From contig JAFVBB010000008.1 of NCBI GenBank assembly GCA_017480225.1, forward strand, positions 48,292 to 112,291: DNA of 64,000 nucleotides, given 5' to 3'. Below the pieces are notes generated by a model, which was not told the origin of the DNA, did not search any database, and was given only the letters and a program-made list of their open reading frames with translations. This document shows positions 2,514 through 58,183 of the stretch, in pieces. The position numbers and the translations under genes were made by a program. Source of the DNA: Bacteroidales bacterium. GTDB lineage: Bacteria; Bacteroidota; Bacteroidia; Bacteroidales; P3. Numbering within the stretch: the first letter of the stretch is position 1; every line of letters begins with the position of its first letter.

Positions 2514-4523
2514 ATGAAAGCAATGATTCTTAACAGTGGCCTTGGCCACCGTATGGGGGTTATCACGAAGGAGCATCCCAAATGTATGACGGAAATATCG
2601 TTCCGCAACACTATTCTGAGTAGGCAGCTTCGGCTGTTAGTCTCTTTTGGCGTTGATGAAATTGTAATGACCACTGGTTATTACGACAAAGTGTTAGTAG
2701 ATTATTGCAATGCGCTGCATCTGCCTGTGAAGTTCGCTTTTGTCAACAACCCAGAATATGCAACCACCAATTACATCTATAGCATCTGTTGCGCCAAGGA
2801 GCAGTTGAAGGACGATGACATTATTCTCATGCATGGCGACCTCGTGTTCGAAAGCCAGGTGCTTGAGGCCGTCATTGACAGCCCGGTAAGTTGCATGGCT
2901 GTCAGTAGCACGCTCCCTTTGCCCGATAAAGATTTCAAGGCAGTCGTCAAGGACGGAAAGATTGAGAAGGTGGGCATTGAGTTCTTCGACAATGCCGTGG
3001 CTGCACAGCCTCTTTATAAGATGCTAAAAGAGGACTGGCTGGTATGGCTCCAGAGCATAGAGAAATTCTGTGAAAGCGGCAACCGAAAAGTTTATGCAGA
3101 GAATGCCTTTAATGAGGTATCTGCCAAGTGCAACGTTTATCCTTGTGATGTAAAAAATATGCTCTGCGCGGAGATTGACACGCCAGAAGATCTGGAGGTG
3201 GTCAGCAAAAAGGTGGCAGAAATCAACGAGCGCACGGTGTATATGTGCTTCAGCACAGAATATATCCACAGCGGCCACATGGCCATCATCAACAAGGCTC
3301 GCCGCCTTGGCCGTCTGATTGTTGGCGTGCTGAGTGACGAAGCAATATCCAGTTTCAAGCGCTATCCGTTGATTCCATACGAGGAGCGCAAGGCCCTGTT
3401 TGAAAACCTTGCAGGCGTGGAGCGTGTCGTTGAGCAGAAAACGCTCTCCTATAAAGAAAACCTCGAAACGTTACGTCCTGACTATGTGGTGCATGGCAAC
3501 GACTGGTGTGAAGGCTTCCAGAAGCCCATCCGCCAGGAGGTGTGCGAGGTGTTGGCCGAGTATGGTGGCAAGCTGGTGGAGTATCCTTACAGCAATAATC
3601 CTATGTACAAGGAGCTGGATGCCAACCATCGCTCTGAGGCTTCCATGCCTGATGTGCGCCGTGGCCGTCTGCGTAAGCTCATCAATATGAAGGGCCTGGT
3701 AACTGCTATGGAGGCTCATAGTGGTATCACCGGGTTAATTGTTGAGAATACCAAGGTGCTTCAGGATGGTAAAACCTACCAGTTTGATGCCATGTGGGTA
3801 AGTTCACTTTGCGACTCTACGGCTAAGGGCAAGCCCGACATTGAGTTGGTGGATATGACCAGCCGCTTCCGCACAATTGACGATATTATGGAGGTGACCA
3901 CCAAGCCCATCATCTTCGATGGTGATACGGGTGGCTTGACCGAGCACTTTGTCTATACCGTGCGCTCGCTGGAGCGAATGGGCGTGAGCATGGTCATCAT
4001 CGAGGATAAGACTGGGCTGAAGAAAAACAGCCTGTTTGGTACCGAGGTGAAGCAGACACAGGCCAGCATACCCGATTTCTGCGAGAAGATACGTGCCGGT
4101 AAGAAAGCCCAGAAGACGAGGGAGTTTATGATTTGTGCCCGCATTGAGAGCCTGATTCTGGAGCGAGGCATGGAAGATGCCTTAGAACGAGCCTTTGCCT
4201 TCAGCGAGGCTGGTGCCGATGCCATTATGATTCACTCTCGAAAGAAAGACCCGGCTGAAATATTTGAGTTTGTGGAGAAGTTCCGTCAGAAGAACAGCAC
4301 CACTCCCATCGTGGTTGTACCCACATCGTTCAACACCGTCACAGAGTGGGAGTTCAAGGAGCGTGGCGTAAACGTGGTCATCTATGCCAACCAACTCACC
4401 CGCACCGGATTCCCCGCCATGCAGGATGCAGCGCGCACCATACTGCAGAACCACCGCGCCAAGGAGTGCGACGACAAGTGCATGTCCATCAAAGAGATTA
4501 TCACCTTAATACCCGAGCAATAA
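2514..4523 (+). CDS. pepM: Tri-domain phosphoenolpyruvate mutase: LicC/PntC-like nucleotidyltransferase, TagD-like domain, PepM
   Basis: A 669-residue fusion. Residues 1-240 are a LicC/PntC-like NTP transferase (LNSGLGHRMG loop, MHGDLVF). Residues 243-375 resemble the TagD-like cytidylyltransferase of the second PepM in this window, with HSGH at about 252. However, the second signature (GISST in the paralog) is replaced here by SNNPMYK near 360. Residues 385-669 are PEP mutase, which converts PEP to phosphonopyruvate: GDTGG near 470 and the diagnostic EDKTGLKKNS near 497. Together the first and last domains would make and activate a phosphonate as a CMP ester. The gene shares one base with ppd (TAATG). 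The middle domain may be inactive, its role taken by the N-terminal domain (inference). Confidence 0.92.
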   Translation: MKAMILNSGLGHRMGVITKEHPKCMTEISFRNTILSRQLRLLVSFGVDEIVMTTGYYDKVLVDYCNALHLPVKFAFVNNPEYATTNYIYSICCAKEQLKDDDIILMHGDLVFESQVLEAVIDSPVSCMAVSSTLPLPDKDFKAVVKDGKIEKVGIEFFDNAVAAQPLYKMLKEDWLVWLQSIEKFCESGNRKVYAENAFNEVSAKCNVYPCDVKNMLCAEIDTPEDLEVVSKKVAEINERTVYMCFSTEYIHSGHMAIINKARRLGRLIVGVLSDEAISSFKRYPLIPYEERKALFENLAGVERVVEQKTLSYKENLETLRPDYVVHGNDWCEGFQKPIRQEVCEVLAEYGGKLVEYPYSNNPMYKELDANHRSEASMPDVRRGRLRKLINMKGLVTAMEAHSGITGLIVENTKVLQDGKTYQFDAMWVSSLCDSTAKGKPDIELVDMTSRFRTIDDIMEVTTKPIIFDGDTGGLTEHFVYTVRSLERMGVSMVIIEDKTGLKKNSLFGTEVKQTQASIPDFCEKIRAGKKAQKTREFMICARIESLILERGMEDALERAFAFSEAGADAIMIHSRKKDPAEIFEFVEKFRQKNSTTPIVVVPTSFNTVTEWEFKERGVNVVIYANQLTRTGFPAMQDAARTILQNHRAKECDDKCMSIKEIITLIPEQ

Positions 4524-5647
4524 TGATTCGTCCAGAATATTTTATTGAGAAGCTGAGAGAGAACGGCATAGACTGTTTTGCCGGCGTGCCCGATAGTCTG
4601 CTAAAGAATATCTGTGCTTACATCACCGACCATTGTGATGCTCAGCATAACATCATTGCAGCCAACGAGGGCGCTGCCGTAGGAATAGCTGCCGGGCACT
4701 ATCTTGCCACGGGCCAGCCAGCCTGCGTGTATATGCAGAATAGTGGCGAGGGCAACATCATCAACCCGCTTGCCTCGCTGACAGACCCCGAAGTCTATCA
4801 TATTCCTGTGCTGCTGCTCATTGGCTGGCGGGGGCGTCCCGGCGTGCACGATGAGCCGCAGCATGTGAAACAGGGAAAGATAACCACGGGGTTGCTCAAC
4901 ACGATGGGTGTCAACTTTGACGTACTGAGCAAGGACGAAGATAAGGCTGAGAAGCAGATTGCCAAGGCCGTTGCAGCCCTGCAGCGCAAAGAGGTCTATG
5001 CTCTGGTGATTGAGAAGGATACCTTTGATGCCTATACACTGCAGAACGTAGAGCAGAACGATCTCACGTTATCTCGCGAAGAAGCCATCCAGACCGTAGC
5101 TGCAGCCCTTGACGAGAAGGGCTGCATTGTCTCAACGACGGGTATGATCAGCAGAGAGCTTTTTGAATACCGCGCCGCGATGAACCAAGGCCATGAGCGC
5201 GATTTCCTGACCGTAGGCTCTATGGGGCATGCCTCGCAGATAGCCCTTGGCATCGCTATGGCGCAGCCTGGCCGCCGCGTGTGGTGCTTCGACGGCGACG
5301 GCGCGGCCATTATGCATTTGGGCAGCATGGCCATCGTGGCCAGCAAAGCCCCTAAGAACTATGTCCATGTGGTGTTCAACAACGGTGCACACGACAGCGT
5401 GGGGGGCCAGCCTACAGTAGGACTGAAGATAGATCTTCCAGCCATTGCCAAGGCTGTAGGCTACAAGCAGTACTATAGCTGTGAAACGAAAGAATACCTC
5501 CAGGAGCTTCTGGAAAAAGTGAAGACACAGGAAGGCCCCATCCTCTTACAGGTGTGTGTAAAGAAAGGCAACCGTAAAGACCTTGGCCGTCCAACAACTA
5601 CTCCCATTCAGAACAAAGAGGCTTTGATGGCTTTCTTGAAAGATTAA
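4523..5647 (+). CDS. ppd: Phosphonopyruvate decarboxylase
   Basis: A 374-residue thiamine-diphosphate enzyme that drives phosphonate synthesis forward by decarboxylating phosphonopyruvate to phosphonoacetaldehyde. The N-terminal pyrimidine-binding half has GVPDSLLK and AANEGAAVGIAAGHY with the catalytic Glu. The C-terminal half has the ThDP motif GDGAAIMH followed about 25 residues later by [11 protein letters not shown]. The length is typical of Ppd. The start is the ATG that overlaps the pepM stop by one base; a longer upstream frame runs through pepM and is rejected. It is followed after 26 bases by the alcohol dehydrogenase. Confidence 0.95.
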   Translation: MIRPEYFIEKLRENGIDCFAGVPDSLLKNICAYITDHCDAQHNIIAANEGAAVGIAAGHYLATGQPACVYMQNSGEGNIINPLASLTDPEVYHIPVLLLIGWRGRPGVHDEPQHVKQGKITTGLLNTMGVNFDVLSKDEDKAEKQIAKAVAALQRKEVYALVIEKDTFDAYTLQNVEQNDLTLSREEAIQTVAAALDEKGCIVSTTGMISRELFEYRAAMNQGHERDFLTVGSMGHASQIALGIAMAQPGRRVWCFDGDGAAIMHLGSMAIVASKAPKNYVHVVFNNGAHDSVGGQPTVGLKIDLPAIAKAVGYKQYYSCETKEYLQELLEKVKTQEGPILLQVCVKKGNRKDLGRPTTTPIQNKEALMAFLKD

Positions 5648-5673
5648 ATCTCCATGATTTCTGTGTGTCAATT

Positions 5674-6768
5674 ATGAAGCAAATAATATATCGTGGCATA
5701 GAATACCTGTCAAAAGCCTTGGAAGATTCTTCTAAGGTTTTGTTGGTATGTGATGCGTCTTTCCCCTTTCTCAGTATCAAAGATGACATAGAGAACATGG
5801 GCGTGCCCTATGTGGTCTTCAGCGACTTTACGCCTAACCCGCTCTACGAGGATGTCTGCAAGGGTGTTGACTTGTTCAACATCACAAAGTGCGACACCAT
5901 CCTTGCAGTGGGCGGCGGCAGTTCTTTGGATGTAGCCAAGTGCATCAAGCTCTATTGTAAAATGCAGAAGGGGAAGCTCTATCTGGAACAAGACTATGGA
6001 GATACTGGCGTAAAACTCATTGCCATTCCTACTACTGCCGGCACAGGCTCCGAGTCTACCCGCTATGCTGTCATCTATTACAAAGGGAAGAAACAGAGCG
6101 TCACGCATGACAGCATCATTCCCGACATTGCCATTTTGGAACCGAAGGTGCTGAAAACACTTCCGTTATACCAGAAGAAATGCACCATGCTTGATGCCTA
6201 TTGCCATGGCATTGAGTCTTGGTGGAGTGTCAACAGTACCGAGGAAAGCAAAAAACTATCGAAACAAGCTGTAGAGACCATCACCAAGTGGTGGCGTGAA
6301 TACATCTTCAACAATTCTGACGTGGCAGCAGAGCAAATCATGCAAGCAGCAAATCTTGCAGGACAGGCCATCTGCATAACACAGACAACTGCCCCCCATG
6401 CCTTCAGCTATAAGATTACCTCGCTGTATAAGCTCCCTCATGGGCATGCTGTGGCAGTTTGCCTTCCTGAGATTTGGTCGTTTATGAATGCGGGGCGAGG
6501 TCACTGCATAGATAAGCGTGGAGAAGAATATCTGAAAACTATCTATACCGAGATAGCGCATGCCATGGGGTGTTCAACACCAATAGAAGCCATAAAATGT
6601 TTCCGCGCGATGCTATCGGAGATGGGCGTGAATAATCCCCAATCAAACGATAGGGCAAGTGAATTGGACATTCTTTCCCACTCGGTTAACCCTGTGCGGT
6701 TAAAGAATAGCCCCATGGAATTAGATGAAGGAACAATAAAACAGCTCTATGGCGTAATCCTACAATAG
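5674..6768 (+). CDS. Iron-type alcohol dehydrogenase, probable phosphonoacetaldehyde reductase
   Basis: A 364-residue group III (iron-dependent) alcohol dehydrogenase. It shows the dinucleotide loop GGGSSLDVAKCIKL, the TTAGTGSESTR phosphate-binding stretch and histidines of the metal site in DAYCHGIESWW and LPHGHAVAV. Directly after pepM-ppd such enzymes reduce phosphonoacetaldehyde to 2-hydroxyethylphosphonate, so that is the likely reaction. The ATG at 5674 is preferred over an in-frame GTG nine bases upstream because it aligns with the paralog at 57113. The paralog shares long blocks such as NSTEES and SVNPVRLKN, showing that the two cassettes are homologous. Confidence 0.9.
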   Translation: MKQIIYRGIEYLSKALEDSSKVLLVCDASFPFLSIKDDIENMGVPYVVFSDFTPNPLYEDVCKGVDLFNITKCDTILAVGGGSSLDVAKCIKLYCKMQKGKLYLEQDYGDTGVKLIAIPTTAGTGSESTRYAVIYYKGKKQSVTHDSIIPDIAILEPKVLKTLPLYQKKCTMLDAYCHGIESWWSVNSTEESKKLSKQAVETITKWWREYIFNNSDVAAEQIMQAANLAGQAICITQTTAPHAFSYKITSLYKLPHGHAVAVCLPEIWSFMNAGRGHCIDKRGEEYLKTIYTEIAHAMGCSTPIEAIKCFRAMLSEMGVNNPQSNDRASELDILSHSVNPVRLKNSPMELDEGTIKQLYGVILQ

Positions 6769-6779: not shown

Positions 6780-7676
6780 ATGATCCGATTTGAAGAGCTG
6801 CTGAACAAGATGTACTTGATGAAAGATGTTTTCATTCCTATGGATGACAAACAGTTTCATCAAGTACAACAAACAGGATTCTCCATGCTTTTGACCATTC
6901 AGGATTTCTGTAAGAGCCACAACATAACGATGATGCTGGGCTATGGCTCTGTGCTTGGTGCTGTACGCCATCGCGGCTTTGTTCCTTGGGACGACGACGT
7001 AGATATTCTGATGCCGAGAAAAGACTATATGCGTTTTCTATCTTTATGTGAAAGTGGACTACCCAGGCACCTGAAGGTCTATTCGCCATACACATCGCTG
7101 GGACCAGAAGTACGCTATACCAAAATCATTGACGATGAAACGCGGATTATTTCGCCAGTGGGGGGGGGGAGTTATAACAAAGTGTGTGTGGATGTGTTTC
7201 CACTCGAAAACTATGACGAACGCTGGCTAAGGAGAAAATTGAAGTGGGCAGTTTACATGATACTGTCAACCGCTGCCACCACGTGCAGGCTCTGGTATGA
7301 CCGCAAGCGCGACACCGACTACAAATTCACCATGAAGCTGACTCGGCAAGGAACCTTTGAATATTACATCCGCCTTGGCGTTGGATTCTGTTTTTCATTT
7401 CTTTCCTACAAGCGGTGGCTCAAGATTGCTGACAAGTGGCTCATCTGTAACAAAGAAACAAAGCAGGTGTACATACCCTCCATATTCATTAATACCAACC
7501 CTATCGACAAAGACGTAATGATGCCTGTCTCGGTCGGTCAATTTAATGGGCGAGAGGTGTTCCTACCCAATAAGCCCGAGCAATATTTGGAATTTTCATA
7601 TGGCGACTGGCGTCAGCTCCCCCCAGAGGAAAAGCGCCGTCAGCACTTGTTCTTCAGAAAGCAACAGTCATCCTGA
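6780..7676 (+). CDS. LicD family phosphotransferase 3, with a G10 tract
   Basis: A 298-residue LicD protein, somewhat longer at the N-terminus than its neighbours. The core reads TMMLGYGSVLGAVRH and GFVPWDDDVDILMPR, followed by VDVFPLENYD and a C-terminal GDWRQLPPEEKRR. A run of ten G (7160-7169) encodes Gly-Gly-Gly in the loop before the VDVFPLE strand. At this length the frame is intact; loss or gain of one base would truncate the protein about halfway. Its place between the phosphonate dehydrogenase and the flippase suggests it transfers the cluster's own activated headgroup (inference). Confidence 0.85.
   Translation: MIRFEELLNKMYLMKDVFIPMDDKQFHQVQQTGFSMLLTIQDFCKSHNITMMLGYGSVLGAVRHRGFVPWDDDVDILMPRKDYMRFLSLCESGLPRHLKVYSPYTSLGPEVRYTKIIDDETRIISPVGGGSYNKVCVDVFPLENYDERWLRRKLKWAVYMILSTAATTCRLWYDRKRDTDYKFTMKLTRQGTFEYYIRLGVGFCFSFLSYKRWLKIADKWLICNKETKQVYIPSIFINTNPIDKDVMMPVSVGQFNGREVFLPNKPEQYLEFSYGDWRQLPPEEKRRQHLFFRKQQSS
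7160..7169 (+). repeat. G10 homopolymer tract inside licD 3
   Basis: Ten consecutive G in the middle of the third licD gene, in frame at the present length. Together with the C9 tract of licD 2 it makes two long G/C homopolymers within paralogous genes of one locus, as expected for contingency loci. Confidence 0.75.
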
Positions 7677-7691: not shown

Positions 7692-9095
7692 ATGCAAAAT
7701 ATACTTTTCAGATTTAAGCAACTGAAGGGAACGTTGGCTTTCTTTAGTTCCGAAGGTTTGGCAAAGGGGCTGCACTGGGTGTTGCTGCTGTTGCTGTTCT
7801 TCTTGTCAAAACCGCATCCGGAGAACTACGGAATGTTGGCTCTGCTTATTGCCTTTGAGCGCATGGCGGAAGTGATGCTTGACTTCGGACAGAAGCGTGT
7901 CGTCTATCGTTTCTTTGACAAAAGCACACACGACAACCGATATTTTCTTTCCACCACCTTCACGGCGTGGATGCTGCTCATCGCAGTCATCCTGCTATCG
8001 CTTGGGCTGGGCATTTGGGCTTCGGGCTGCGATACCTTCTTCAACATCAAGACGTCTCTACCGCTGTATATATGCATGGCCAACCTTGGCGTGGGAAAGG
8101 TTTATGCGTTTGTTACCTATATCCTCCGTATAGATAAGCGCATCAAGTCATACGCTGGCATGCGGCTGATATTCAGTATTGTGCAGTTTGCAGCTTCTCT
8201 GCTTGTTTCTATAGTATTTGACGACGTAAGTCTGGGGTTTGTATTAGGGACATTCCTGGCCTATGTCATTTCCACCATCTGCAAGATAGGAGTGTTCAAG
8301 GAGTTTGCCATCAGTTTCCTTTTTGATTGGAATATTTTCAAGCGCAACATGCTCTATGGCTATCCATTGGTGATACAGCAGCTTATCTCGAACATCGGCC
8401 CCAATATTGATAAGTTCTTCCTTGCAGAATTAGTGTCACTGACAGAAGTTGGTCACTACAACTTTGTAGTCACAATACTATCTGCTTTCACATTCTTGTT
8501 CTCTATTTGCACGTCCTACTTCGAGCCAATGCTTTTCAAAATAAGGAAAGATCCGAAACGATTCCTCATAACCAACCAGACCTTTATCTATACATGCATC
8601 GGTTTTGCAGCAGTCGTGGTGCTTGCCACTTCTGGGGTGTTCCAACTGATTGACAAGGCAGGCGAAACACCTCTATATCTTATGCTCTCTGCTGCCTACA
8701 TTATGTTGCCAGTTTATTTCTACAACACCTACGTATATATGACTTCCGACAAAAATGGCTATGTAGTGTTTTTTTCTGCAATAGCGGTTTTGGCTGACCT
8801 CGCTGCCAACTATATCCTTATCAAGTCTTATGGGGTGATGGGAGCAGCTATGGCGCAGTGTATTTATACCTTCGTGCTCAGCTGGCTGTCCTACGCGTTC
8901 ATGGAATGGAAGTACCCTCACTATCGCAGTAATCACAACCGCCTCTTGGGCATCATTATGACATTGCCTGTAGTTGCCTGTTTTGTACTCAATGCCCCCC
9001 TTGTCCTGCTGGCAGAATATTTGGCTATCACGTTTTTTGCCAGCTACTTCATTACAAAGAACAGGCACGAAATGTTTGCCGTAGTTGAAGACTAA
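7692..9095 (+). CDS. wzx: Polysaccharide flippase (Wzx family)
   Basis: A 467-residue polytopic inner-membrane protein with about 12-14 hydrophobic segments, starting after a short basic head. The size, the segment pattern and the position beside a polymerase and initiating transferase match Wzx-type flippases, which move undecaprenyl-linked repeat units across the membrane. No sequence motif is diagnostic; the call rests on topology and context. It lies 15 bases after licD 3 and 9 bases before licD 4, apparently in the same operon. Confidence 0.85.
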   Translation: MQNILFRFKQLKGTLAFFSSEGLAKGLHWVLLLLLFFLSKPHPENYGMLALLIAFERMAEVMLDFGQKRVVYRFFDKSTHDNRYFLSTTFTAWMLLIAVILLSLGLGIWASGCDTFFNIKTSLPLYICMANLGVGKVYAFVTYILRIDKRIKSYAGMRLIFSIVQFAASLLVSIVFDDVSLGFVLGTFLAYVISTICKIGVFKEFAISFLFDWNIFKRNMLYGYPLVIQQLISNIGPNIDKFFLAELVSLTEVGHYNFVVTILSAFTFLFSICTSYFEPMLFKIRKDPKRFLITNQTFIYTCIGFAAVVVLATSGVFQLIDKAGETPLYLMLSAAYIMLPVYFYNTYVYMTSDKNGYVVFFSAIAVLADLAANYILIKSYGVMGAAMAQCIYTFVLSWLSYAFMEWKYPHYRSNHNRLLGIIMTLPVVACFVLNAPLVLLAEYLAITFFASYFITKNRHEMFAVVED

Positions 9096-9104
9096 AGAAA
9101 AAAC

Positions 9105-9908
9105 ATGAAAGAAATAAATTCAACAGGAGAACTTAAACAGATAGGACTTGAAATACTGTTGTCTGTACATCAGTTCTGCGAAGACCATCATATTATGTAT
9201 TCTCTGGCCTGTGGAACGCTCATTGGAGCCGTAAGGCACCAAGGTTTCATACCATGGGACGATGATGTTGATATCTACATGTTGCGCAATGACTATAACC
9301 GATTCCTTGACATTTATCATGATGAAACGGGACACTATCAGGCCATATCGTTGGAAACGTCGAAAGACTGGAAACAACCGTACGCTAAAGTCTTCGACAC
9401 TCATACGCTGTTAATTGAGCAGTCTAACACAAATGTTGATGGTGTTGGATTTGGTATTGATGTGTTTCCTATTGATGCAGCTCCTGATTCTTTAGCAGAC
9501 TGGCAGAAGTACGAAAAGCGCAGAGTCTTACTGCAAAGACTTTTTGGCATGAAGAAAATGGTATGGAGAGAAGGCCGCTCCTTAGCCAAGAACATATTCT
9601 TATACATGATGAAATTTTTCTTGCTACCTTTCTCTATGCGGTCCATGGCTAAGATGATTGACAGGTATGCAAAGAAATACAACGATATGTCCACATCCTA
9701 CCTTGCAGAGAGCTGTTTTGGAAATCCGAACAACCGTTTTGCCCATGCAGATTTCTCAACTTCTGTTGACATATATTTTCAAGGGCATCAGTTGAAAGCA
9801 ATGAATGGCTTTGAAAACTATCTCCGAGCTTTCTATGGGGATTACATGAAACTGCCCCCTAAAGAGCAACGAATAACGCATCATGCATTCAAGGTTTTTT
9901 GGACGTAA
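9105..9908 (+). CDS. LicD family phosphotransferase 4
   Basis: A 267-residue LicD protein with [39 protein letters not shown] and a complete C-terminus (GDYMKLPPKEQ then an HHAFKVFWT tail). It has no long homopolymer. Its intact tail is the internal standard that shows licD 2 is frameshifted. Four LicD copies in 9 kb suggest several acceptor sugars or positions for one headgroup, or alternation between them (inference). Confidence 0.87.
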   Translation: MKEINSTGELKQIGLEILLSVHQFCEDHHIMYSLACGTLIGAVRHQGFIPWDDDVDIYMLRNDYNRFLDIYHDETGHYQAISLETSKDWKQPYAKVFDTHTLLIEQSNTNVDGVGFGIDVFPIDAAPDSLADWQKYEKRRVLLQRLFGMKKMVWREGRSLAKNIFLYMMKFFLLPFSMRSMAKMIDRYAKKYNDMSTSYLAESCFGNPNNRFAHADFSTSVDIYFQGHQLKAMNGFENYLRAFYGDYMKLPPKEQRITHHAFKVFWT

Positions 9909-9921
9909 ATATGAAACGACA

Positions 9922-11238
9922 ATGGAACAAGTTAAATCATTAAATATAATAAAGTATTCCGTCTTCTTCTTGTCCTTCGTTTTGATGATCTTGCCGGGGA
10001 TTACAAATAAAGAACTGGCTGATTTCCACATGTATCTGTTAGGTATATTGTTTTTGACAGAAATTAGACAAGTAAAAGCAATTTCATTGTATTCTGTTTG
10101 GATTGCAGGATTCATATATATCATATTGTCTGAGATGATACTAAGCCCAGAAGGAGATGATTTTAACTGGACTGTACGCTATCTTTTGTCGGCAAATAAT
10201 GTTGTATTAATAGGCTATTCAATAGCAGCAAATAAACAATTGTACAAATATAAGAAAACAAATTTCTCTACAAGATCGCAGTTCTTCCCGTTTTTGTTAG
10301 CTTTATTGACAATCTTTTATTTGTACAACATGTTTCCAAAGGTTTCTATGAGTTATTTTTATGGACGACAATTAGTGTCAACGATGGGAAGTGGTACTCT
10401 CAAAGGCTCGTTGAATAGTGCTTTGGGATTAATTTTGCCAGCATTGATAGCTTATTATGTTGTTCACATAAAAAAAAGTTCCAAATGGGTGGCTTTAGCA
10501 TTTGTTCTCCCTATTTTCTTATTTCTAATTATACTATCAACCCGTTTTAAATTATTATTCTCTGTTATCCCATTTTTCTTAGTAAGCGGATTTCTAAATT
10601 TTGATAAAGTCAATCTGAAGTCAATGGTTCTTCTTCTTTTTGCTGTAGTTGTTCTTAGTTTGATTTCACAATTAACAAAGATAAATAGAAATGAATCTTA
10701 CCAGAATCGCTGGGAAAATCTCTCAGAAAGGAAAATGGTAAATGGCAATTTGGCTGAAATTATAGCTAATCAATGTTCCCCAGAAGGTTGTGTAGCAATG
10801 ACACGATTGGCTGAAAGATATTTTGAAGATCATGAACATACGTACGGTAAGAGTATAGGCTTCATTACATATTTCTGGGTACCACGAGCTATTTGGCCTG
10901 ACAAGCCTACACAGGTAGACCACTGGTTGCCAAGATACTTTAATCCGAATATGGCTGATACGGCTTCAACAGCGTCAGGGTTTACAGGAGAGTTAAGGGC
11001 TGATTTTGGATATTTATCTTACTTTTTCTTGTTTCTGCTGGGCGTTCTTCTAAAGCGTTGTAATTATTATCTGATGTTTTATAACTATGGACGATCTCCA
11101 TGTTACGAGTCAATCTATGCTTCACTCCTTATTCCAACAACCTTCTTCAGCTTACGAGGTCTAAACCTTTCCATCACAACGTATATTTGTGCAGTTTTGT
11201 TACTTTTGTTAATATCAAAATTTATTGGTGTCCGATAA
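9922..11238 (+). CDS. wzy: O-antigen/capsule polymerase-like membrane protein (Wzy)
   Basis: About 438 residues, AT-rich and polytopic, with a large hydrophilic loop (about residues 255-350) as in Wzy polymerases that join repeat units in the periplasm. ATG 9922 is chosen; a start at 9883 would overlap licD 4 by 26 bases. The gene is interrupted three codons from its end by an insertion sequence, whose terminal inverted repeat supplies the last residues (IGVR) and the stop. Excising the element and one copy of the 11-base target repeat restores the ending KSS and a TAA. The polymerase is thus essentially whole. Confidence 0.75.
   Translation: MEQVKSLNIIKYSVFFLSFVLMILPGITNKELADFHMYLLGILFLTEIRQVKAISLYSVWIAGFIYIILSEMILSPEGDDFNWTVRYLLSANNVVLIGYSIAANKQLYKYKKTNFSTRSQFFPFLLALLTIFYLYNMFPKVSMSYFYGRQLVSTMGSGTLKGSLNSALGLILPALIAYYVVHIKKSSKWVALAFVLPIFLFLIILSTRFKLLFSVIPFFLVSGFLNFDKVNLKSMVLLLFAVVVLSLISQLTKINRNESYQNRWENLSERKMVNGNLAEIIANQCSPEGCVAMTRLAERYFEDHEHTYGKSIGFITYFWVPRAIWPDKPTQVDHWLPRYFNPNMADTASTASGFTGELRADFGYLSYFFLFLLGVLLKRCNYYLMFYNYGRSPCYESIYASLLIPTTFFSLRGLNLSITTYICAVLLLLLISKFIGVR
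11214..11224 (+). repeat. Target-site duplication, left copy (ATCAAAATTTA)
   Basis: An 11-base direct repeat bordering the insertion element; the identical right copy is at 12644-12654. Eleven bases lies in the range usual for IS4-type elements. Confidence 0.8.
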
Positions 11239-11331: not shown

Positions 11332-12530
11332 TCAAAACTGTAAAACCAGCTGCCCTGTGTCAGTCTCGCATCGTTCAGCGTTGATCCTTTCCCATGTCCG
11401 TTCCGGATTTTCAAGGAAACTGAATATGTCGACGTAGTATATCAGCACTTGCCTGACGGCGGTGACGAGGTTTGAGAATGCCCAATGATGTTTGACTTTA
11501 CGTTTCACCACCGTGAGCAACAGGTTGGCTATCAAACATACCCATACCTGCGATTCTATTGCATTGACGCTTTCACCGTAGAAATATTTTAGTGGGAAAT
11601 TCTGTTTGAGTTGCTTAAAGAGTACTTCTATCTGCCATCGGTCGTCATAAATAGCAATGAATTCCTGCTCGGACAGGTCGAAGTTGTTGGTCAATAGTGT
11701 GGCATAGCTCCCATCTTTGTGCCAATATTGTATCATGCGAGCTGTATGAGTGACATCGCCCTTGGTAAACTGTACTTTTCTGGTGCTCATCTCCACCTGT
11801 GCGTCAGGAGTTATCAGCATTGTAGACTCAAGGGTGTGAAAAGTTAGATTTTTCTTCATTTTGGTAACATAGAACACATGTTCCTGTGTAAGCCTCTCCA
11901 ACTCCGAGTAGTCGATGTAAGCTCTGTCCATGGCAATGAAAGAGCCTTCAGGAAGATGAAGATTTTTTAGTGTACCTATGTCGTGAGTGGCAGCGGAAGT
12001 GAAGTTCACAAAATGCTGAGCCCATTCGTCATACTTGATGACACAATGAGCCTTGATGCCGCCTTTTTTCTTGCCGTGCTTCGGGTTACGACCTGCCCCT
12101 TTCAAGATGTTTGAAAATAATGTTATTGTCGTAGAATCAATAATATACAATTGCCTCTGTGTCTCAGTGAGCTGGCTGTCCGATAAAAGATGCTTGTACT
12201 GCTTGTATAGTTGATTGTAAATATCCCTGAAGAACAGGCTACTGCGACGATTGTTTGCATCAGAGAGGGTGCTACGCTTAATCATGTAGTTCACTCCAAG
12301 GTGTTGGAGTTTGTTTGCCTCGGCCAGCATGCCTACAACAATCTCTCTCAGAGTGTCAAAACGCATCAATACAGCAAACAAAAAAGCCACAAAATAGGTT
12401 TAACCATCCAGTTTTTTACGTACCTGTTGTATCCTCCATCGGAACTTATCTTTCTGATTTTCTCGCGGTTTACGAGATTTAACAATTGAACATAGACTGG
12501 CTGTCCGATAAAATGTGTATCTTTGCTCAT
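11332..12530 (-). pseudogene. IS4-family DDE transposase, disrupted near the N-terminus
   Basis: The natural start is ATG at 12530 (MSKDTHFIGQPVY). The frame breaks at a run of six A near 12416-12421, where seven A would continue into the downstream frame. That frame then also meets a TAA at 12400-12402 before entering the long open part (12390 to 11332). The open part contains the DDE core: IDSTTITLF, IAMDRAYIDY, and the IS4 signature YDDRWQIEVLFKQLK. The A run reads A AAA AAC in the zero frame, a slippery heptamer. A -1 shift would nevertheless end at the TAA four codons later, so the gene is judged dead. Confidence 0.8.
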
Positions 12531-15642: not shown

Positions 15643-16841
15643 AAAAGAGAATATTAATCATATCCGCAGTATTTCCTCCAGAGCAGGTTACTTCTGCTTT
15701 CCTCAACTATGACTTGGCTCATGAGTTGGCGAAGGAGTATGAGGTGACTGTGCTTAGGCCATATCCTACCAGACCAATCGGTGTGAAGTTTGAGAGTACG
15801 GAGGTTGAGGACAAGTCGTTCAGGACGATACTTGTGGATTCTTATACTCATCCGCAGTCTGAACTGACGGGACGCTTCAAGGAGAGCAACGATTTTGGAA
15901 AGAAATCTGTAGAATATATAGAGAAGCATCATGGTGAAATAGATTTTGTCTATAACGACGGATGGCAACTGTTCGGGCTTTATCGGGTGGCAAAGGCCTG
16001 TAAGAAATATGGTATACCTTATATGGTCCCCATACAGGATATTTATCCGGAATGTCTTTTTACCAATAAGAATTATCCAGGTCTGTTGAAAAGGATGATT
16101 GGGAGTGTATTGTTGCCCATTGACAAATATTATCAAAAACATGCAGCTTGCGTCAGGACCATATCTGTGGAGATGCGCAACTACTTGGCTGAAACCAGAG
16201 GAGTGGCTAAAGAGAACTATCTTGTGGTTAATAACTGGCAGAACGATGCTGACTTCCTGAAGGAATACCCCAAGCGCACGGATGACGGAAAGATAATCTA
16301 TGCGTACGTGGGAAGCATCAATGAACATGCCAATGTTGACTTAATGATAAAGGCCTTTAATGAAGCTGCAATCCCCAATAGTGAGTTCAGAATATATGGA
16401 GGTGGAAATAAAAAGGAGGAATGTGTGAATCTGGCCAAGGGGCTTGGCATGACGAACGTGGTTTTTGAACAAGTGAGCAGGGACAAAGTGGCCTATGTGC
16501 AGTCTCTGGCCGACGTGCTTGTCATGGCGCTTCCTACAGGAAATGGCAACTTGTGTCTTCCTTCCAAGTTGACATCGTATATGTTGTCTGGCAAAGCAAT
16601 ATTGGCCAGTGTGGATGAAGACAGCGCAACAACACGGATTCTGAAAGAAAACGTGTGTGGCATCATCGTTCCCCCTGACGACCTGGATTCGCTGACTAAA
16701 GCGTTTAGAGATTATGGGGAAATGGATGGTGAAGCACTCTGCGCAATGGGAAAGAACAGCAAGGCTTACGCAATGAATAATCTAACCCGCGAGATAAACC
16801 TGCAAAAAGTAGTGAGTAGAATAAAAACCATATTATCATAA
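15639..16841 (+). CDS. Family 4 glycosyltransferase (WbuB-like)
   Basis: 400 residues with a GTG start overlapping the previous stop (GTGA). The N-terminus ISAVFPPEQVTSA and the C-terminal donor-binding segment GNLCLPSKLTSYMLSGKAILAS are typical of WbuB/WcaI-like GT4 enzymes, which are commonly found in Bacteroidales glycan loci. Substrate cannot be read from sequence. The stop shares one base with the start of the next gene (TAATG). Confidence 0.86.
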   Translation: MKKRILIISAVFPPEQVTSAFLNYDLAHELAKEYEVTVLRPYPTRPIGVKFESTEVEDKSFRTILVDSYTHPQSELTGRFKESNDFGKKSVEYIEKHHGEIDFVYNDGWQLFGLYRVAKACKKYGIPYMVPIQDIYPECLFTNKNYPGLLKRMIGSVLLPIDKYYQKHAACVRTISVEMRNYLAETRGVAKENYLVVNNWQNDADFLKEYPKRTDDGKIIYAYVGSINEHANVDLMIKAFNEAAIPNSEFRIYGGGNKKEECVNLAKGLGMTNVVFEQVSRDKVAYVQSLADVLVMALPTGNGNLCLPSKLTSYMLSGKAILASVDEDSATTRILKENVCGIIVPPDDLDSLTKAFRDYGEMDGEALCAMGKNSKAYAMNNLTREINLQKVVSRIKTILS

Positions 16842-18025
16842 TGGCAGAAGAGAAACAAATGCATGGCTTTAGGGCTAGACTTGATTATGCGCTAAAGCAC
16901 AATTATTTTATCAATAAGGCTTTCCGTAGTTCCATGAGTGCGTTTATGCGGGCTTGGGGCCACTTTGTTCCCATGGATGACAAGATGATTATCTTTAGTG
17001 GACATACCAGAAAGTATAGCGACAGTCCTCGTGCTATCTATGAATATATGATTACACATCCAGAGTACAAGGATTATAAATATGTTTGGGCACTGGAAGA
17101 CCCAGAACACGTAGATGTACCCGGGCCTGCCATCAAAATAAAAGCAGACACGCCAGAATATTTCAAATATACACTGAAAGCGAAATATTGGATAACTTGC
17201 GTTAATATAGAGCGTAGTCTCCACTACAAAAAGAAGAAATGCGTCTATCTTAACACGTGGCATGGCGTGGCTTTTAACTGCATAGGAAATGCTGCTGGTG
17301 GTCGTAAGGACTATGATTTCAGCAATACTGATTTCTGGTGTTATGAAAGCGAGTATCAGAAGGAGATATTCAAACGCGATTTGAATGTAAGAGAAGAAGC
17401 ACTGATACCTTCTGGACTTCCTCGTAATGACGGGCTGTATCATGTAACGAAAGATGAAGTAGTTGCCCTAAAGAAGAAGCTTGGGCTGCCGCTTGATAAA
17501 AAGGTTTTGATGTATGCACCTACTTGGCGTGACAGCTACGACAAGGGCGCGTCTTACGCCATCAAGCCTCCTATGGATTTGAAGAAGTGGGAAGAGAAGT
17601 TAAAGGATGAGTATGTTCTTCTGTTCAGAACTCATGCTTATACAACCAAACTCCTTGGAGTCGAGTTCGATGATTTCTGCCTGGATTATACCTCCTATCC
17701 TGTTATTAACGACTTGTTTAAGGTTGCAGATATCCTGATTTCGGACTATTCTGCCTGCATCGCAGACTATTCTATCTTGGAACGTCCCGTGATTTGCTTT
17801 GCATACGACTATGACGATTATAAGTCAACACGAGGATTGTATATTGACTTTGCGAAAGACATGCCCAACGGAATCCTTGAAACAGAAGATAAGGTCATTA
17901 ATCATATTCTGACAATAAACTATCAGGCAGAATGTGAGAAGACAAGGGATATGATTAAGAACAGGTTTACTTATCTTGGTGGTCATGCCACTGAGATGTG
18001 TGTTGAGAAAATGTTTAAAAACTAA
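16841..18025 (+). CDS. CDP-glycerol:glycerophosphotransferase family protein (TagB/TagF-like)
   Basis: 394 residues. The hallmarks of the family are present: NTWHGVAFNCIG with the catalytic-site His, YAPTWRDSYD, LFRTHAYTT, and SDYSACIADYSILERP. These enzymes move a glycerol-phosphate or related polyol phosphate from a CDP donor to a sugar. The next two genes are an aminotransferase and a cytidylyltransferase fusion, which could make the CDP-linked donor. This suggests a phosphodiester substituent or bridge in the glycan, beyond the phosphonate (inference). Confidence 0.9.
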   Translation: MAEEKQMHGFRARLDYALKHNYFINKAFRSSMSAFMRAWGHFVPMDDKMIIFSGHTRKYSDSPRAIYEYMITHPEYKDYKYVWALEDPEHVDVPGPAIKIKADTPEYFKYTLKAKYWITCVNIERSLHYKKKKCVYLNTWHGVAFNCIGNAAGGRKDYDFSNTDFWCYESEYQKEIFKRDLNVREEALIPSGLPRNDGLYHVTKDEVVALKKKLGLPLDKKVLMYAPTWRDSYDKGASYAIKPPMDLKKWEEKLKDEYVLLFRTHAYTTKLLGVEFDDFCLDYTSYPVINDLFKVADILISDYSACIADYSILERPVICFAYDYDDYKSTRGLYIDFAKDMPNGILETEDKVINHILTINYQAECEKTRDMIKNRFTYLGGHATEMCVEKMFKN

Positions 18026-18040
18026 AAACGGAATAATATA

Positions 18041-19120
18041 ATGATAAACTTTACAGTAGGCCCCGTACAGTCATCTGATGCAGTACGCGCCATTGGTGCT
18101 GAACAAGTGCCCTATTTTAGAACATCTGAGTTCTCAGAGTTGATGCTGGAGAATGAACGCTTGGTAAAGAAGTTCGCCCACGCCACGGATGATAGTAAGG
18201 TTGTTTTTATGACCTGCTCTGGTAGTGGTGGTATGGAAACCTCCATCATGAATTGCCTGAACAAGAATGATAAAGCTCTTGTTGTCAATGGCGGCAGCTT
18301 TGGTGAACGCTTTGTGGAACTATTGACACGACATGGAGTTCCTTTTACGGAAATCAAGTTAGAACATGGCAAGGCGCTGAAGCCAGAGCACCTTACGCCC
18401 TACGAAGGTCAGGGATATACAACATTTCTTTTACAGAAGCACGAAACATCAACAGGTGTTCACTATGACATTAATTTAGTAAGTGATTTCTGCAAACGTA
18501 ATGGCTGCTTCCTCATTGTTGATACCATCAGCACATTCCTCTGTGACCACTTCGATATGGCAGGTACAAATGCTGGGATTATGATTACGGGCTCCCAGAA
18601 GGCATTGGCCTGTGCGCCTGGTATTGCAGTGATGATACTTTCTCCGGATGCTCTGAAACGCGTACAGGAGAATCGTTGCTGCTGTCAGTATTTAGACTTG
18701 AAGTTGGCACTAAAGAATATGGAGAGGGGACAGACACCTTGGACTCCCGCTGTTGGTATTCTTAGACAGATTAATGTGCGTCTGAAGGAAATTGATGCCA
18801 TGGGCGGTGCAGAGGCAGAAATTGCACGTTGTGCAGGTCTGGCTAAATACTTCCGAGACAAGCTTGTAGAATATAACCTGCCTTTTGAGATTGTTTCTGA
18901 GAGTCTTAGCAATGCCGTAACGCCTCTGCACCCCACCACACAGTCCGCGTACCAGATATTCTTGAAGATAAAGGATGAGTACGGTATGTGGATTTGTCCG
19001 AATGGAGGTGAGATGAAAGACACCATCTTCCGCGTGGGCCACATTGGATGTTTGACGGAGGCTGACTACGACAGGTTGATTGACGCGTTTGTTGATTTAA
19101 AAAACAAAAAGTTTATCTGA
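18041..19120 (+). CDS. Class V pyridoxal-phosphate aminotransferase (AGT/PhnW-like)
   Basis: 359 residues of the alanine-glyoxylate / 2-aminoethylphosphonate aminotransferase superfamily. Visible are TCSGSGGMETSI (cofactor phosphate loop), KHETSTGVHYD, IVDTISTFLCD with the Asp that binds the pyridine nitrogen, and GSQKALACAPG with the Schiff-base lysine near residue 189. Two roles fit: forming 2-aminoethylphosphonate from the phosphonoacetaldehyde made by Ppd, or aminating a polyol-phosphate ketone that the coupled cytidylyltransferase then activates. The one-base overlap with the cytidylyltransferase favours the second. The role is unresolved. Confidence 0.85.
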   Translation: MINFTVGPVQSSDAVRAIGAEQVPYFRTSEFSELMLENERLVKKFAHATDDSKVVFMTCSGSGGMETSIMNCLNKNDKALVVNGGSFGERFVELLTRHGVPFTEIKLEHGKALKPEHLTPYEGQGYTTFLLQKHETSTGVHYDINLVSDFCKRNGCFLIVDTISTFLCDHFDMAGTNAGIMITGSQKALACAPGIAVMILSPDALKRVQENRCCCQYLDLKLALKNMERGQTPWTPAVGILRQINVRLKEIDAMGGAEAEIARCAGLAKYFRDKLVEYNLPFEIVSESLSNAVTPLHPTTQSAYQIFLKIKDEYGMWICPNGGEMKDTIFRVGHIGCLTEADYDRLIDAFVDLKNKKFI

Positions 19121-54478: not shown

Positions 54479-54643
54479 GGCCTTGATGCTGTTTGGGCCT
54501 GTGTATCAGTGGGGTATGGAATGTATGTTGCATAACTGTCTGTGAATGAGCCTCGCGGCGTTGCTCCGAATGGCGGCATGGGAGGGTCGGCGCTTGCGCG
54601 AAAATAAAATTGCGCGGAGGCACAATAAAACGCCGACAGGGCT

Positions 54644-54662: not shown

Positions 54663-54678
54663 TTTATAAAAAGGCACG

Positions 54679-55983
54679 ATGAAGACTGTATATGTCGGCA
54701 TGAGCGCCGACATGATCCATCCGGGTCATCTGAACATAATACACGAGGCTGTGAAGCTGGGCGAGGTGACGGTCGGTGTGCTCACCGACGCGGCCATAGC
54801 GAGCTACAAGCGGCTGCCCTACCTCACCTACGAGCAGCGGGCCGAGATAGTGGGCAACATCAAGGGCGTGGAGCGGGTTGTGCCGCAGACGACGCTCGAC
54901 TATGTGCCCAACCTGCTGCGCCTGCGCCCCGACTATGTGGTGCACGGCGACGACTGGAAGGAGGGCGTGCAGCAGCAGACGCGCCAGCGCATCATCGAGG
55001 TGATGGCGGGCTGGGGCGGCAAGGTGGTCGACGTGCCCTACACGCAGGGCATCAGCAGCACCGCCATGAACCAGCGGCTGAAGGAGATCGGCACCACGCC
55101 CGAGGTGCGCATGAAGCGGCTGCGCCGCCTGATAGGGGCGAAGCGGACGGTGCGCATACTGGAGAGCCACAGCGGCCTCACGGGGCTCATCGTGGAGAAC
55201 ACCGGCGTGATAGTCGACGGCTGCCGCGAGGAGTTTGACGGCATGTGGGCCAGCAGCCTCACAGACAGCGCCAGCAAGGGCAAGCCCGACATCGAGGCGG
55301 TGGACATCACCACCCGCCTGCACGACCTCAACGACGCCCTGGAGGTCACCACCAAGCCCGTGATCTTCGACGGCGACACCGGCGGCAAGACGGAGCACTT
55401 CGTCTTCACGGTGCGCACGCTGGAGCGGCTGGGCATCTCGGCGGTGATAATAGAGGACAAGGTGGGGCTGAAGCAAAACTCGCTCTTCGGCACCGACGCC
55501 GTGCAGGTGCAGGCCGGTGTGGACGAGTTCTGCGCCAAGATCAGGGCCGGCAAGAACGCCCAGGTCACCGACGACTTCATGATCATAGCGCGCATAGAGA
55601 GCCTTATAGCCGGCAAGAGCGTTGACGACGCGCTGGAGCGCGCCGCGGCCTACGTGGCCGCCGGCGCCGACGGCGTCATGATACACAGCAAGAGCGCCGA
55701 CGGGGCCGACATAGAGGAGTTCTGCCGCCGCTTCCGCCAGGCCGACGTGTCGACGCCCATAGTGGCCGTGCCCACCACCTACAACATGCGCACCGAGGAC
55801 GAGCTGGCCGAGTGGGGCGTGAACGTGGTGATCTACGCCAACCACCTGCTCCGCGCCTCCTATCCGGCCATGGTGGGTTGCGCCGAGAGCATACTGCGCC
55901 ACCGCCGCAGCCTGGAGGCCTCGGAGGAATACTGTATGCCGGTCAAGGACCTGCTCAACCTCATACCCGGCACCAAGCAATGA
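54679..55983 (+). CDS. pepM: Phosphoenolpyruvate mutase with N-terminal cytidylyltransferase domain
   Basis: 434 residues. Residues 1-135 are a TagD-like cytidylyltransferase with both motifs, HPGH (14-17) and GISST (about 123-127). Residues 145-434 are PEP mutase: [27 protein letters not shown], and the diagnostic [10 protein letters not shown] near residue 262. It makes phosphonopyruvate and probably CMP-activates the final phosphonate. It is homologous to the last two thirds of the 2514-4523 protein but lacks the N-terminal LicC/PntC-like domain and keeps a complete CTP site. It is GC-rich like its surroundings. The stop overlaps ppd (ATGA). Confidence 0.94.
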
Positions 55984-57125
55984 TCAGCCCTCAGTTCTTC
56001 GTGGAGAAGCTCCGCGCCGAGGGCGTGGAGTTCTACGCAGGGGTGCCCGACTCGCTGCTGAAGAGCGTGTGTGCCTACATCACCGACCACACCGACGAGG
56101 CGCACCACGTCATCGCCGCCAACGAGGGCGGCGCGGTGGCGCTGGCGGCGGGCTACCACCTGGCCACCGGGCGCGTGGGCTGCGTGTATATGCAGAACAG
56201 CGGCCAGGGCAACGCCGTGAACCCCCTCTGCTCGCTGACCGACCGCGACGTGTACCACATGCCGCTGCTGCTCGTCGTGGGCTGGCGCGGCAGGCCGGGA
56301 GTGCACGACGAGCCGCAGCACGTGAAGCAGGGCAAGGTCACCACCGGGCTGCTCAACACCCTGGGCATAGACTACACCGTGCTGGCCAGGGAGGAGGCTG
56401 CCGCCGCCCGCCAGATAGAGCAGGCCATGGCCTGCATACGCCGCTCGGGCGAGGCCTACGCCATAGTGGTGGAGAAAGACACCTTCGAACCCTACACCCT
56501 TGCCTGCGCCCGCCCCGACAGCGGCACGATGAGCCGCGAGGAGGCCGTGCGCATCGTGGCCTCGGCCATGGACGGCGCCGACGTGGCGGTGAGCACCACG
56601 GGCATGATCAGCCGCGAGTTGTTCGAGCACCGCGCCGCCGAGGGGCAGGGGCACGGGCGCGACTTCCTCACCGTGGGCTCGATGGGCCACGCGTCGCAGA
56701 TAGCGCTGGGCATAGCCATGCAGCAGCCTGGCAGGCGCGTGTGGTGCCTCGACGGCGACGGAGCCGCGATAATGCACATGGGCGGCATGGCCATTGTGGG
56801 GCAGAAGTCGCCCGGCAACTATGTCCACATAGTGTTCAACAACGGCGCCCACGACAGCGTGGGCGGCCAGCCCACGGCAGGGCAGTGCATCGACCTGGTG
56901 GCTATAGCCCGCGCCTGCCGCTACCGCCACGCCATGCTGGCCGCCGACGAGGCCGCCCTGCGCAGCGCCGTGGCCGAGGCCAAGCGCGCCGAGGGGCCGG
57001 TGCTGGTCGACGTGCGAGTGCGCCGTGGCAACCGCAAGGACCTGGGGCGCCCCACCACCACCCCGGCAGAGAACAAAGAGGCCCTGATGGCCTTCCTGAG
57101 CGACGACAGCCTATGCAGAGGATAG
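55980..57125 (+). CDS. ppd: Phosphonopyruvate decarboxylase, second copy
   Basis: 381 residues, close homolog of 4523-5647. It shares [23 protein letters not shown] with the catalytic Glu, [19 protein letters not shown], and the ThDP motif [11 protein letters not shown] with [13 protein letters not shown]. It makes phosphonoacetaldehyde. It is coupled to pepM by ATGA and overlaps the dehydrogenase by 13 bases, tighter than the first cassette. Confidence 0.95.
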
Positions 57126-58183
57126 AGTACGGACTGGGGGCGGTTGACGAGGCACTGCGCGCGGCAGGCAGCAGGCGCTGTATGCTGGTGTGCGGCTCCT
57201 CGTTCGACCGCCTCGGTGTGAGCGGCCAGGTGAGGGCAGGGGTACGCTTCAGCGCTTTCACCCCCAACCCGCGCTACGAGGACGTGTGCCGCGGCGTGAG
57301 CCTGTTCAACGACGAGGGCTGCGACGCGCTGGTGGCTGTGGGCGGGGGCAGCGCCATCGATGTGGCGAAGTGCATCAAGCTCTTCTGCCGCATGGACCAT
57401 GGGCGCAATTACCTGGAGCAGGAGTTCGCCGACAGCGGCGTACCCCTCATCGCGGTGCCCACCACGGCAGGCACCGGAAGCGAGAGCACCCGCTTCGCCG
57501 TGGTCTACCTCGACGGCGAGAAGCAGAGCGTCAGCCATTGGAGCATAGTACCCGACGTGGCGGTGCTCGAGCCTCGCCTGCTGGCCTCGCTGCCGCCATA
57601 CCAGAAAAAAAGCGCCATGCTCGATGCCCTGTGCCAGGCCGTGGAGTCGTGGTGGAGTGTGAACTCGACCGAAGAGAGCATCGGCTACTCGCGCAAGGCT
57701 GTGAGGCTGGTGGCCGGCTGGTGGCGCGAGTATATTGAAGAGGGCTCGGAGGCGTCGCTCGAAAGGATGATGCTGGCCGCCAACCTCTCCGGGCGCGCCA
57801 TCAACATATCGCAGACCACAGCCCCCCATGCCATGAGCTACAAACTGACGTCGATGTACGGTGTGCCGCACGGCCATGCCGTGGCGATGTGCCTGCCGTT
57901 GGTGTGGCGCTACATGGAGCGGCACGCCGAAGGGTGCGTAGACCCGCGCGGCAAGTACCACCTGGCGGGAGTGCTGGGCGACATAGGCAGCGAGCTGGGC
58001 GGAGCTGACGGCTTCGAGTCGATGATGGCGAGCCTGTGCCTGCTGCCGGTGCGCAGCTCGAGCCGCGAGGCCGACCTCGACGTGCTGGCGCGGTCGGTGA
58101 ACCCTGTGAGGCTGAAGAACAACCCTGTGAGGCTCGACGAGGCCGCGCTGCGCGGTTTCTACGAAGCCATTGTGAAAGAATAA
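57113..58183 (+). CDS. Iron-type alcohol dehydrogenase, probable phosphonoacetaldehyde reductase, second copy
   Basis: 356 residues. GGGSAIDVAKCIKL, TTAGTGSESTRFAV and the metal-site histidines in LPHGHAVAM-type stretches (here VPHGHAVAM) are conserved with the copy at 5674, as is the ending SVNPVRLKNNPVRL. The N-terminus is slightly shorter. The expected product is 2-hydroxyethylphosphonate. ATG 57113 lies within the ppd end; a longer apparent frame from 56069 runs antiparallel in phase through ppd and is rejected. Confidence 0.9.
   Translation: MQRIEYGLGAVDEALRAAGSRRCMLVCGSSFDRLGVSGQVRAGVRFSAFTPNPRYEDVCRGVSLFNDEGCDALVAVGGGSAIDVAKCIKLFCRMDHGRNYLEQEFADSGVPLIAVPTTAGTGSESTRFAVVYLDGEKQSVSHWSIVPDVAVLEPRLLASLPPYQKKSAMLDALCQAVESWWSVNSTEESIGYSRKAVRLVAGWWREYIEEGSEASLERMMLAANLSGRAINISQTTAPHAMSYKLTSMYGVPHGHAVAMCLPLVWRYMERHAEGCVDPRGKYHLAGVLGDIGSELGGADGFESMMASLCLLPVRSSSREADLDVLARSVNPVRLKNNPVRLDEAALRGFYEAIVKE

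Follow-up and report, generated by a model that had tools for sequence, protein, structure and literature searches.

Decoration of the cell surface is the presumed task of most bacterial phosphonate clusters, and the step that activates the phosphonate is a bottleneck in understanding them. Surface phosphonoglycans with 2-hydroxyethylphosphonate (HEP) reportedly occur in Glycomyces and Stackebrandtia, both Actinobacteria, to which the present locus is likened for a glycan predicted from its genes. Fom1, known from fosfomycin biosynthesis, makes CMP-HEP (CMP, cytidine monophosphate); LicC and PntC enzymes share the signature GxG(T/S)Rx4-8PK, and in Tde-PntC, which is specific for aminoethylphosphonate (AEP), Glu104 and Glu196 are described as placed to bind the AEP amine (PMC6697681). 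Rice et al. (2019) also counted 42 triple fusions of PF12804, PF01467 and Ppm, the same Pfam domain set as in one protein of our locus (PMC6697681). Neither the pathway itself, nor such domain fusions, nor activation through CMP is new. Here we analyze a stretch of 64,000 nucleotides (the window: positions 48,292 to 112,291 of JAFVBB010000008.1) from a Bacteroidales bacterium described as gut-type (GCA_017480225.1); the stretch belongs to contig C20 in a draft genome of 2.05 Mb and 97.6% completeness. It carries two complete cassettes, each encoding a phosphoenolpyruvate (PEP) mutase (PepM), a phosphonopyruvate decarboxylase (Ppd) and an iron-type alcohol dehydrogenase (ADH). We argue that the whole is probably best explained if both cassettes yield HEP but use two kinds of activating enzyme, if a relic of one kind has been kept within the other, and if cassette 1 was imported. 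The genes, domains and motifs on which the argument turns are as follows.

2514-4523, plus strand: PepM1, 669 aa (TIGR02320, 406.3 bits)
2514..3218, plus strand: PepM1 N-terminal LicC-type (MobA-like NTP transferase) domain (PF12804)
3234..3620, plus strand: PepM1 middle Fom1/TagD-type domain (PF01467)
3267-3278 and about 3585-3620, plus strand: PepM1 middle-domain motifs, HSGH kept at the former, GISST region replaced at the latter
3669..4523, plus strand: PepM1 PEP mutase domain (TIGR02320)
4523-5647, plus strand: Ppd1, phosphonopyruvate decarboxylase (TIGR03297, 512.2 bits; start checked)
5674-6768, alternative GTG start 5665, plus strand: ADH1, predicted iron-type phosphonoacetaldehyde reductase (PF00465, 126.6 bits)
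54679-55983, plus strand: PepM2, 434 aa (TIGR02320, 395.9 bits)
54679..55089, plus strand: PepM2 Fom1-type cytidylyltransferase domain (205.2 bits to 5x3d)
54718-54729 and 55048-55062, plus strand: PepM2 motifs HPGH and GISST (5x3d alignment)
55120..55983, plus strand: PepM2 PEP mutase domain (TIGR02320)
55980-57125, plus strand: Ppd2, phosphonopyruvate decarboxylase (TIGR03297, 504.9 bits)
57113-58183, plus strand: ADH2, predicted iron-type phosphonoacetaldehyde reductase (PF00465, 119.2 bits; start checked)

A preliminary description of the window had noted two such cassettes with their genes in the same order, and family scores place them at 2514–6768 and 54679–58183, in identical order. 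Both PepM copies exceed the TIGR02320 cut-off (319.55 bits) and carry the EDKxxxxxNS motif (EDKTGLKKNS in PepM1), both Ppd copies lie above the TIGR03297 cut-off (312.5 bits), and in both cassettes an iron-type ADH adjoins the PepM–Ppd pair, a reductase also standing beside PepM in related loci. The differing PepM architectures that had been noted are likewise real: PepM1 is a three-domain protein (LicC-like, CTP_transf_like, PepM) and PepM2 a two-domain one (CTP_transf_like, PepM). What had been overlooked is that PepM1 contains two different cytidylyltransferase domains, the second of them without GISST. The coupling distances, also said to differ, do so only slightly: PepM and Ppd overlap by 1 base in cassette 1 versus 4 in cassette 2, and Ppd and ADH are separated by 26 bases in the former versus an overlap of 13 bases in the latter. 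The observation of two cassettes is thus confirmed, and its interpretation is supported in part.

In the proposed pathway, PepM would convert PEP to phosphonopyruvate, Ppd would decarboxylate this to phosphonoacetaldehyde, and the iron-type ADH would reduce the aldehyde to HEP, from which, together with cytidine triphosphate (CTP), CMP-HEP would be formed and then passed to a surface glycan. Judged from gene content, both cassettes probably yield HEP, because a genome search returned no PepM or Ppd over cut-off besides these copies and, in this 97.6% complete genome, no AEP transaminase (AEPT) over the TIGR03301 cut-off of 360.8 bits (best 143.3 bits). The earlier proposal that both cassettes lead to HEP is therefore supported by a reductase in each, by the missing AEP aminotransferase over cut-off and by active-site residues; ADH1 in addition belongs, by the ADH profile, to the same family as the reductase of a Segatella copri cassette that is annotated as a phosphonoacetaldehyde reductase. 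That cassette 1 instead makes AEP, through the PhnW-superfamily aminotransferase encoded in its surrounding cluster (18041-19120), we regard as very improbable. The enzyme is present, but it reaches 143.8 bits against the cut-off of 360.8, for which we set it aside as an AEP source, while elsewhere 8 of the 10 neighbouring aminotransferases tested pass (370-457 bits) and the two that fail score like that of the window (168 for the first copy in L180, 143 in L075); cassette 1, moreover, has a reductase and a LicC domain of the histidine type described below. The aminotransferase forms part of what may be called a third CTP-linked unit in the cluster (16841-20460), together with a strong TagB homologue and a fusion protein of TagD-type cytidylyltransferase and Gfo/Idh oxidoreductase, and the similarly scoring aminotransferases of L075 and L180 also adjoin TagD-type genes.

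The two cassettes part company at the activating domains. The reference structure 5x3d, whose entry is listed as phosphoenolpyruvate phosphomutase, is presumably the cytidylyltransferase domain of Fom1, and GISST is the CTP-binding motif in this superfamily. The N-terminal domain of PepM2 matches it with 205.2 bits over residues 3-137, GISST included, and carries both HxGH and GISST. PepM2 shares the two-domain layout of Fom1, from which it differs in being set in a surface-glycan neighbourhood. In cassette 2, HEP would thus be activated by an intact Fom1-type domain fused to PepM. The middle domain of PepM1, in contrast, scores 139.8 bits, retains HSGH and lacks GISST, the match ending where that motif should begin. 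In cassette 1 the activating role would fall to the LicC-type domain fused in front. In its segment GLGHRMGVITKEHPK the arginine and lysine of the signature are present with a spacing of 8, and the T/S position is a histidine, which departs from the strict signature; the pattern GxGxR...PK recurs in 85/85 fused rows of the collection described next. A 48-row LicC profile matches Tde-PntC (6pd1) at 4.7e-67 and Spn-LicC (1jyk) at 3.8e-48, and the domain is of their family, with its catalytic Arg and Lys kept. It differs from them in being fused to PepM via a Fom1-type domain, in carrying a histidine for Tde Glu104 and in having a reductase rather than AEPT as partner. We infer that it is a working HEP cytidylyltransferase and that the middle domain is inactive as one.

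The loss of the motif pair goes together with the presence of LicC across a larger collection. We gathered 172 distinct PepM rows, of which the 166 with a Fom1-type domain were counted and six without one left out; L001-L033 (short copies), L152-L163 (background), L054, L060 and L074 (duplicates) and L176, L199 and L201 (identical) had been dropped before counting. Of the 166, 85 have a fused LicC-type domain and another 29 have one within 4 kb, and not one of these 114 has an intact motif pair (HxGH lost in 9, GISST in 102, both in 3). Where LicC is absent, 46 of 52 rows keep both motifs, or 39 of 42 once those with a flank shorter than 4 kb on either side are removed; ten of the 52 are of this kind, and in them LicC could be unseen. 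In a 79-row PepM tree that includes the exceptions, there are four changes of motif state, and the approximately unbiased (AU) test rejects a single loss (p 0.0002), as it also does in a 73-row run (AU p 0.007). The agreement of 2 of 2 independent pairs in that run is empty, since none of the six exceptions was among its rows. Eight same-genus AEP clusters (L034, L036, L038, L043, L142, L147, L150 and L151) have a fused Fom1-type domain with HPGL instead of HPGH and a LicC-type gene alongside, and LicC-type domains are also found fused to an iron-type ADH (L197, 10510-12210) and to AEPT (L180, 10978-12876).

We considered whether the middle domain of PepM1 is a decaying pseudo-domain. This we reject: the median ratio of non-synonymous to synonymous substitution rates (dN/dS) in the triple fusions is 0.063 for the middle domain, near the 0.067 of the LicC domain, with 0.032 for PepM (17, 17 and 18 close pairs, respectively, among 85 rows), and it lies below the 0.105 of the intact domain in 46 doubles (8 pairs). 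The loss sits at the GISST region, and HxGH and many other positions are conserved; low dN/dS and conserved positions therefore argue for a retained role and against decay. The same facts, with HxGH kept in 82/85 fused rows, would also suit a middle domain that still functions as a nucleotidyltransferase but contacts CTP differently, giving PepM1 two activities or two substrates. We consider this improbable, in that the GISST segment, which aligns to GVSTT of the ethanolamine-phosphate enzyme 3elb, is absent in 85/85 fused rows and residues 360-379 hold no invariant column in the 62-row alignment, for which reason no strict replacement motif is seen. Our preferred reading remains that the old Fom1-type domain of PepM1, having lost GISST, would have been kept for some other role, for example nucleotide or product binding, or structure.

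In a profile alignment to 6pd1, the column of Glu104, the first of the two glutamates described as placed to bind the AEP amine, is occupied in PepM1 by His107 (2832-2834), so that PepM1 departs from the AEP-specific PntC at this position. The histidine is invariant in the 62 triple fusions of alignment A1 (62/62, out of 85) and present in 85/85 fused rows. Products were called HEP or AEP from ADH or AEPT genes within 4.5 kb, neither gene being found for 7 fused, 7 LicC-absent and 2 near rows. On this basis the column holds His in 83/83 LicC-type domains with a reductase nearby (reductase alone in 76 fused and 5 separate rows, both genes in 2 fused ones) and Glu in 25/25 with AEPT alone, as well as in the one separate row that has both; the 9 rows without a product call have His in eight and Glu in one, and L210 was left out as too short. 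At the Glu196 column, every row with an aligned residue has Glu or Asp. Compared with the PepM1 domain, separate LicC genes show 40–67% identity in reductase clusters (5 rows) and 18–24% in those with AEPT.

Several points weigh against the account given so far. First, the His/Glu split, though clean, coincides with the divergence of two LicC subfamilies and may reflect a single evolutionary event, and with HxGH so widely kept in the fused domains, loss of catalysis is not certain. Second, ADH1 and ADH2 score 145.6 and 146.2 bits against the PsrA model TIGR03405 (cut-off 423.7) and are not classed as PsrA. Third, six LicC-absent rows break the rule: in L041, L124 and L212, PepM lies within 0.8 kb of a contig end, and in L195 an intact Fom1/TagD-type gene stands apart at a distance of 3.7 kb, leaving L192 and L193 without visible excuse. 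Four of the 114 rows with LicC have near-intact motifs (GISIT, GVSIS or GVSIT; L186, L189 and L191, which belong to AEPT clusters, and L211, which belongs to a reductase one) and, to judge from these letters, may still work. Fourth, the sample of triple fusions leans to the kin of PepM1, because most of them were drawn from the best 80 of 466 matches to it. Finally, among 7 independent pairs in the 79-row tree an average of 2.6 agree, 0 are contrary and 4.4 show no difference, and among 4 pairs in the full 166-row tree 0.9 agree, none is contrary and 3.1 show no difference; the association between motif loss and LicC reached significance in none of the independent-pairs tests, which hold too few independent events. 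Its independence of kinship is thus only partly shown.

How did one genome come to hold both types? A recent in-genome duplication is not the answer that the trees give. Identity between the copies is 59% for the PepM domain, 66% for Ppd and 53% for ADH, and their placement as sisters is rejected in trees of 48-49 rows (AU p 4e-62 for PepM and 0.003 for Ppd, and barely, at 0.046, for ADH). The base composition differs as clearly as had been claimed: GC of the three cassette genes is 0.46-0.53 in cassette 1 versus 0.65-0.70 in cassette 2, against a genome background of 0.599 sampled from 12 stretches (199.5 kb). That the two were acquired independently, as the preliminary description supposed, is supported for cassette 1 and not supported for cassette 2. 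Cassette 1 looks imported, in composition at least, together with a foreign-looking glycan cluster of GC 0.45 (cluster 1), which seems to start just upstream of the window at putative sugar-nucleotide genes, as read from their sequence, and which contains a DDE transposase:

11332–12390, minus strand: DDE transposase inside cluster 1

From end to end, PepM1 shares 94% identity with a Prevotella protein (among the best 80 of 466 matches). The 25 best matches to the cassette 1 DNA are only 70.5–78.2% identical, too distant for a recent donor. Cassette 2 may be old in the lineage, because its composition is host-like or richer and its closest PepM sequences come from the same genus, in which it would be at home. 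It is nevertheless conceivable, if on balance unlikely, that cassette 2 too was acquired horizontally, from a GC-rich donor: its third-position GC (GC3) of 0.85-0.92 exceeds the upper quartile (0.83) of 92 long background open frames, some of which are not genes, the TagB-like gene that follows it has no homologue of 50% coverage among 34 tabulated same-family cassette loci, and cassettes are present in only part of the family. Against this, the best-scoring matches are all from the same genus (PepM 85-87%, Ppd 69-72%, ADH 58-61%), as are the nearest sequences of PepM2 and Ppd2 by tree path; the placement of ADH2, which carries a composition warning, is less clear, its nearest rows by path being from Clostridia. 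Residence in the genus remains the reading that we favor for cassette 2.

Two cassettes per genome are uncommon but not unique, because few carriers in each sample have two PepM genes. More than one PepM over cut-off is found in 2 of 38 carriers of the family (G000 and G105, with an extra fragment of 42.5 bits in G132), in two among 50 triple-fusion genomes (G580 has two triples, G623 one triple plus a Fom1-type; this survey covered 50 of 77 loci), in 1 of 23 in a Clostridia sample (G771, both types about 4 kb apart) and in none of 15 in a Bacillota sample; among 19 carriers in a sample of the order and 9 in a Bacteroidota sample, only the window's own genome has two. Of the five two-PepM genomes, it alone joins a triple-fusion HEP cassette to an intact Fom1-type one. 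The clostridial locus L182 (8562-15700) pairs a triple-fusion PepM, next to its reductase, with a Fom1-type PepM that lies about 4 kb further along beside AEPT and LicC, and may yield both products. Among named strains, triple fusions occur in Segatella copri DSM 18205 and Xylanibacter ruminicola D31d. The former has a plasmid cluster (NZ_CP085933; L202, 9284-14758) with triple-fusion aepX, aepY and phosphonoacetaldehyde reductase, which make up a complete HEP-type cassette, and then CDP-glycerol glycerophosphotransferase; the cluster differs from cassette 1 in being plasmid-borne, in having a TagB-family and not a LicD gene after the reductase, and in that HxGH and GISST are both changed in the middle domain. 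In a plasmid search, 18 of 36 records with a PepM-like match were small plasmids from the insect symbiont Candidatus Stammera capleta.

Both cassettes stand among genes that point to the cell envelope:

868..2466, plus strand: two LicD-family transferases directly upstream of cassette 1 (PF04991, 148.2 and 144.9 bits)
6780-7676, plus strand: LicD-family transferase after cassette 1 (PF04991, 120.9 bits)
7692..11238, plus strand: Wzx-like flippase (PF01943), LicD (PF04991) and candidate Wzy-like polymerase (membrane protein of 451 aa, no Pfam match)
16841-18025: strong TagB homologue in cluster 1 (PF04464, 273.7 bits)
21353-22423: 'uncharacterised nucleotidyltransferase' (PF14907), close to where cluster 1 ends
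58199-59506, plus strand: distant CDP-glycerol glycerophosphotransferase-like (TagB-like) protein after cassette 2 (PF04464, 24.2 bits; cut-off 22.1)
59523..61790, plus strand: GT2 glycosyltransferase and FAD (flavin adenine dinucleotide) amine-oxidase-like protein after cassette 2 (PF00535, PF01593)

The polymerase is a candidate by its position and hydrophobicity. Attachment of HEP to a surface glycan would accord with these neighbours and with the published logic of nucleotidyl activation (PMC6697681). Fom1-type activation being known from fosfomycin biosynthesis (PMC6697681), one or both cassettes could alternatively feed a product outside the envelope, such as a free small-molecule phosphonate; the neighbours are, however, LicD, TagB-like, flippase and glycosyltransferase genes, and no scanned neighbour matched a fosfomycin-type later enzyme, which makes this alternative highly unlikely. 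A surface glycan remains the expected destination, and the earlier suggestion of two different surface molecules is plausible, the four LicD genes found genome-wide all lying in cluster 1. The contrast drawn at first between LicD in one cassette and a TagB-like protein in the other holds for the gene directly after ADH. It does not extend to the whole of cluster 1, with its strong TagB homologue, the two PF04464 genes of the genome being divided one per cluster. Nor does transferase class mark the cassette type: after the reductase there are 22 LicD, 8 TagB and 16 with neither in intact Fom1-type cassettes (n=46), and 15, 5 and 65 in triple fusions (n=85), so that the proportion of LicD to TagB (TRANSFERASES) is similar behind both PepM architectures (22 to 8; 15 to 5). 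The LicD/TagB contrast is thus true of this genome and not a rule, and these counts led us to reject a pairing of LicC-type activation with LicD and of Fom1-type with TagB.

Taken together, we suggest, tentatively and at somewhat under even chances, a wider reading in which fused Fom1-type domains for HEP or AEP have been replaced more than once by LicC-type enzymes and kept on PEP mutase, less one catalytic motif, as conserved nucleotide- or CMP-phosphonate-binding domains, in which a single residue, His or Glu at the position of PntC Glu104, marks the LicC enzyme as serving HEP or AEP, and in which the genome of the window holds the old and the new solution for the same product. The examined parts of PMC6697681 contain no report of a PF01467 domain without GISST or of the His/Glu split, and in the open-access literature we found neither the loss-with-LicC pattern, nor the conserved relic, nor the split, in searches not aimed by name at motif loss or split. 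If true, the product class could be read from sequence by means of a His/Glu residue that tells LicC enzymes of the HEP type from those of the AEP type, and PEP mutase would bear, in its conserved pseudo-cytidylyltransferase, a new part for regulation or channelling.

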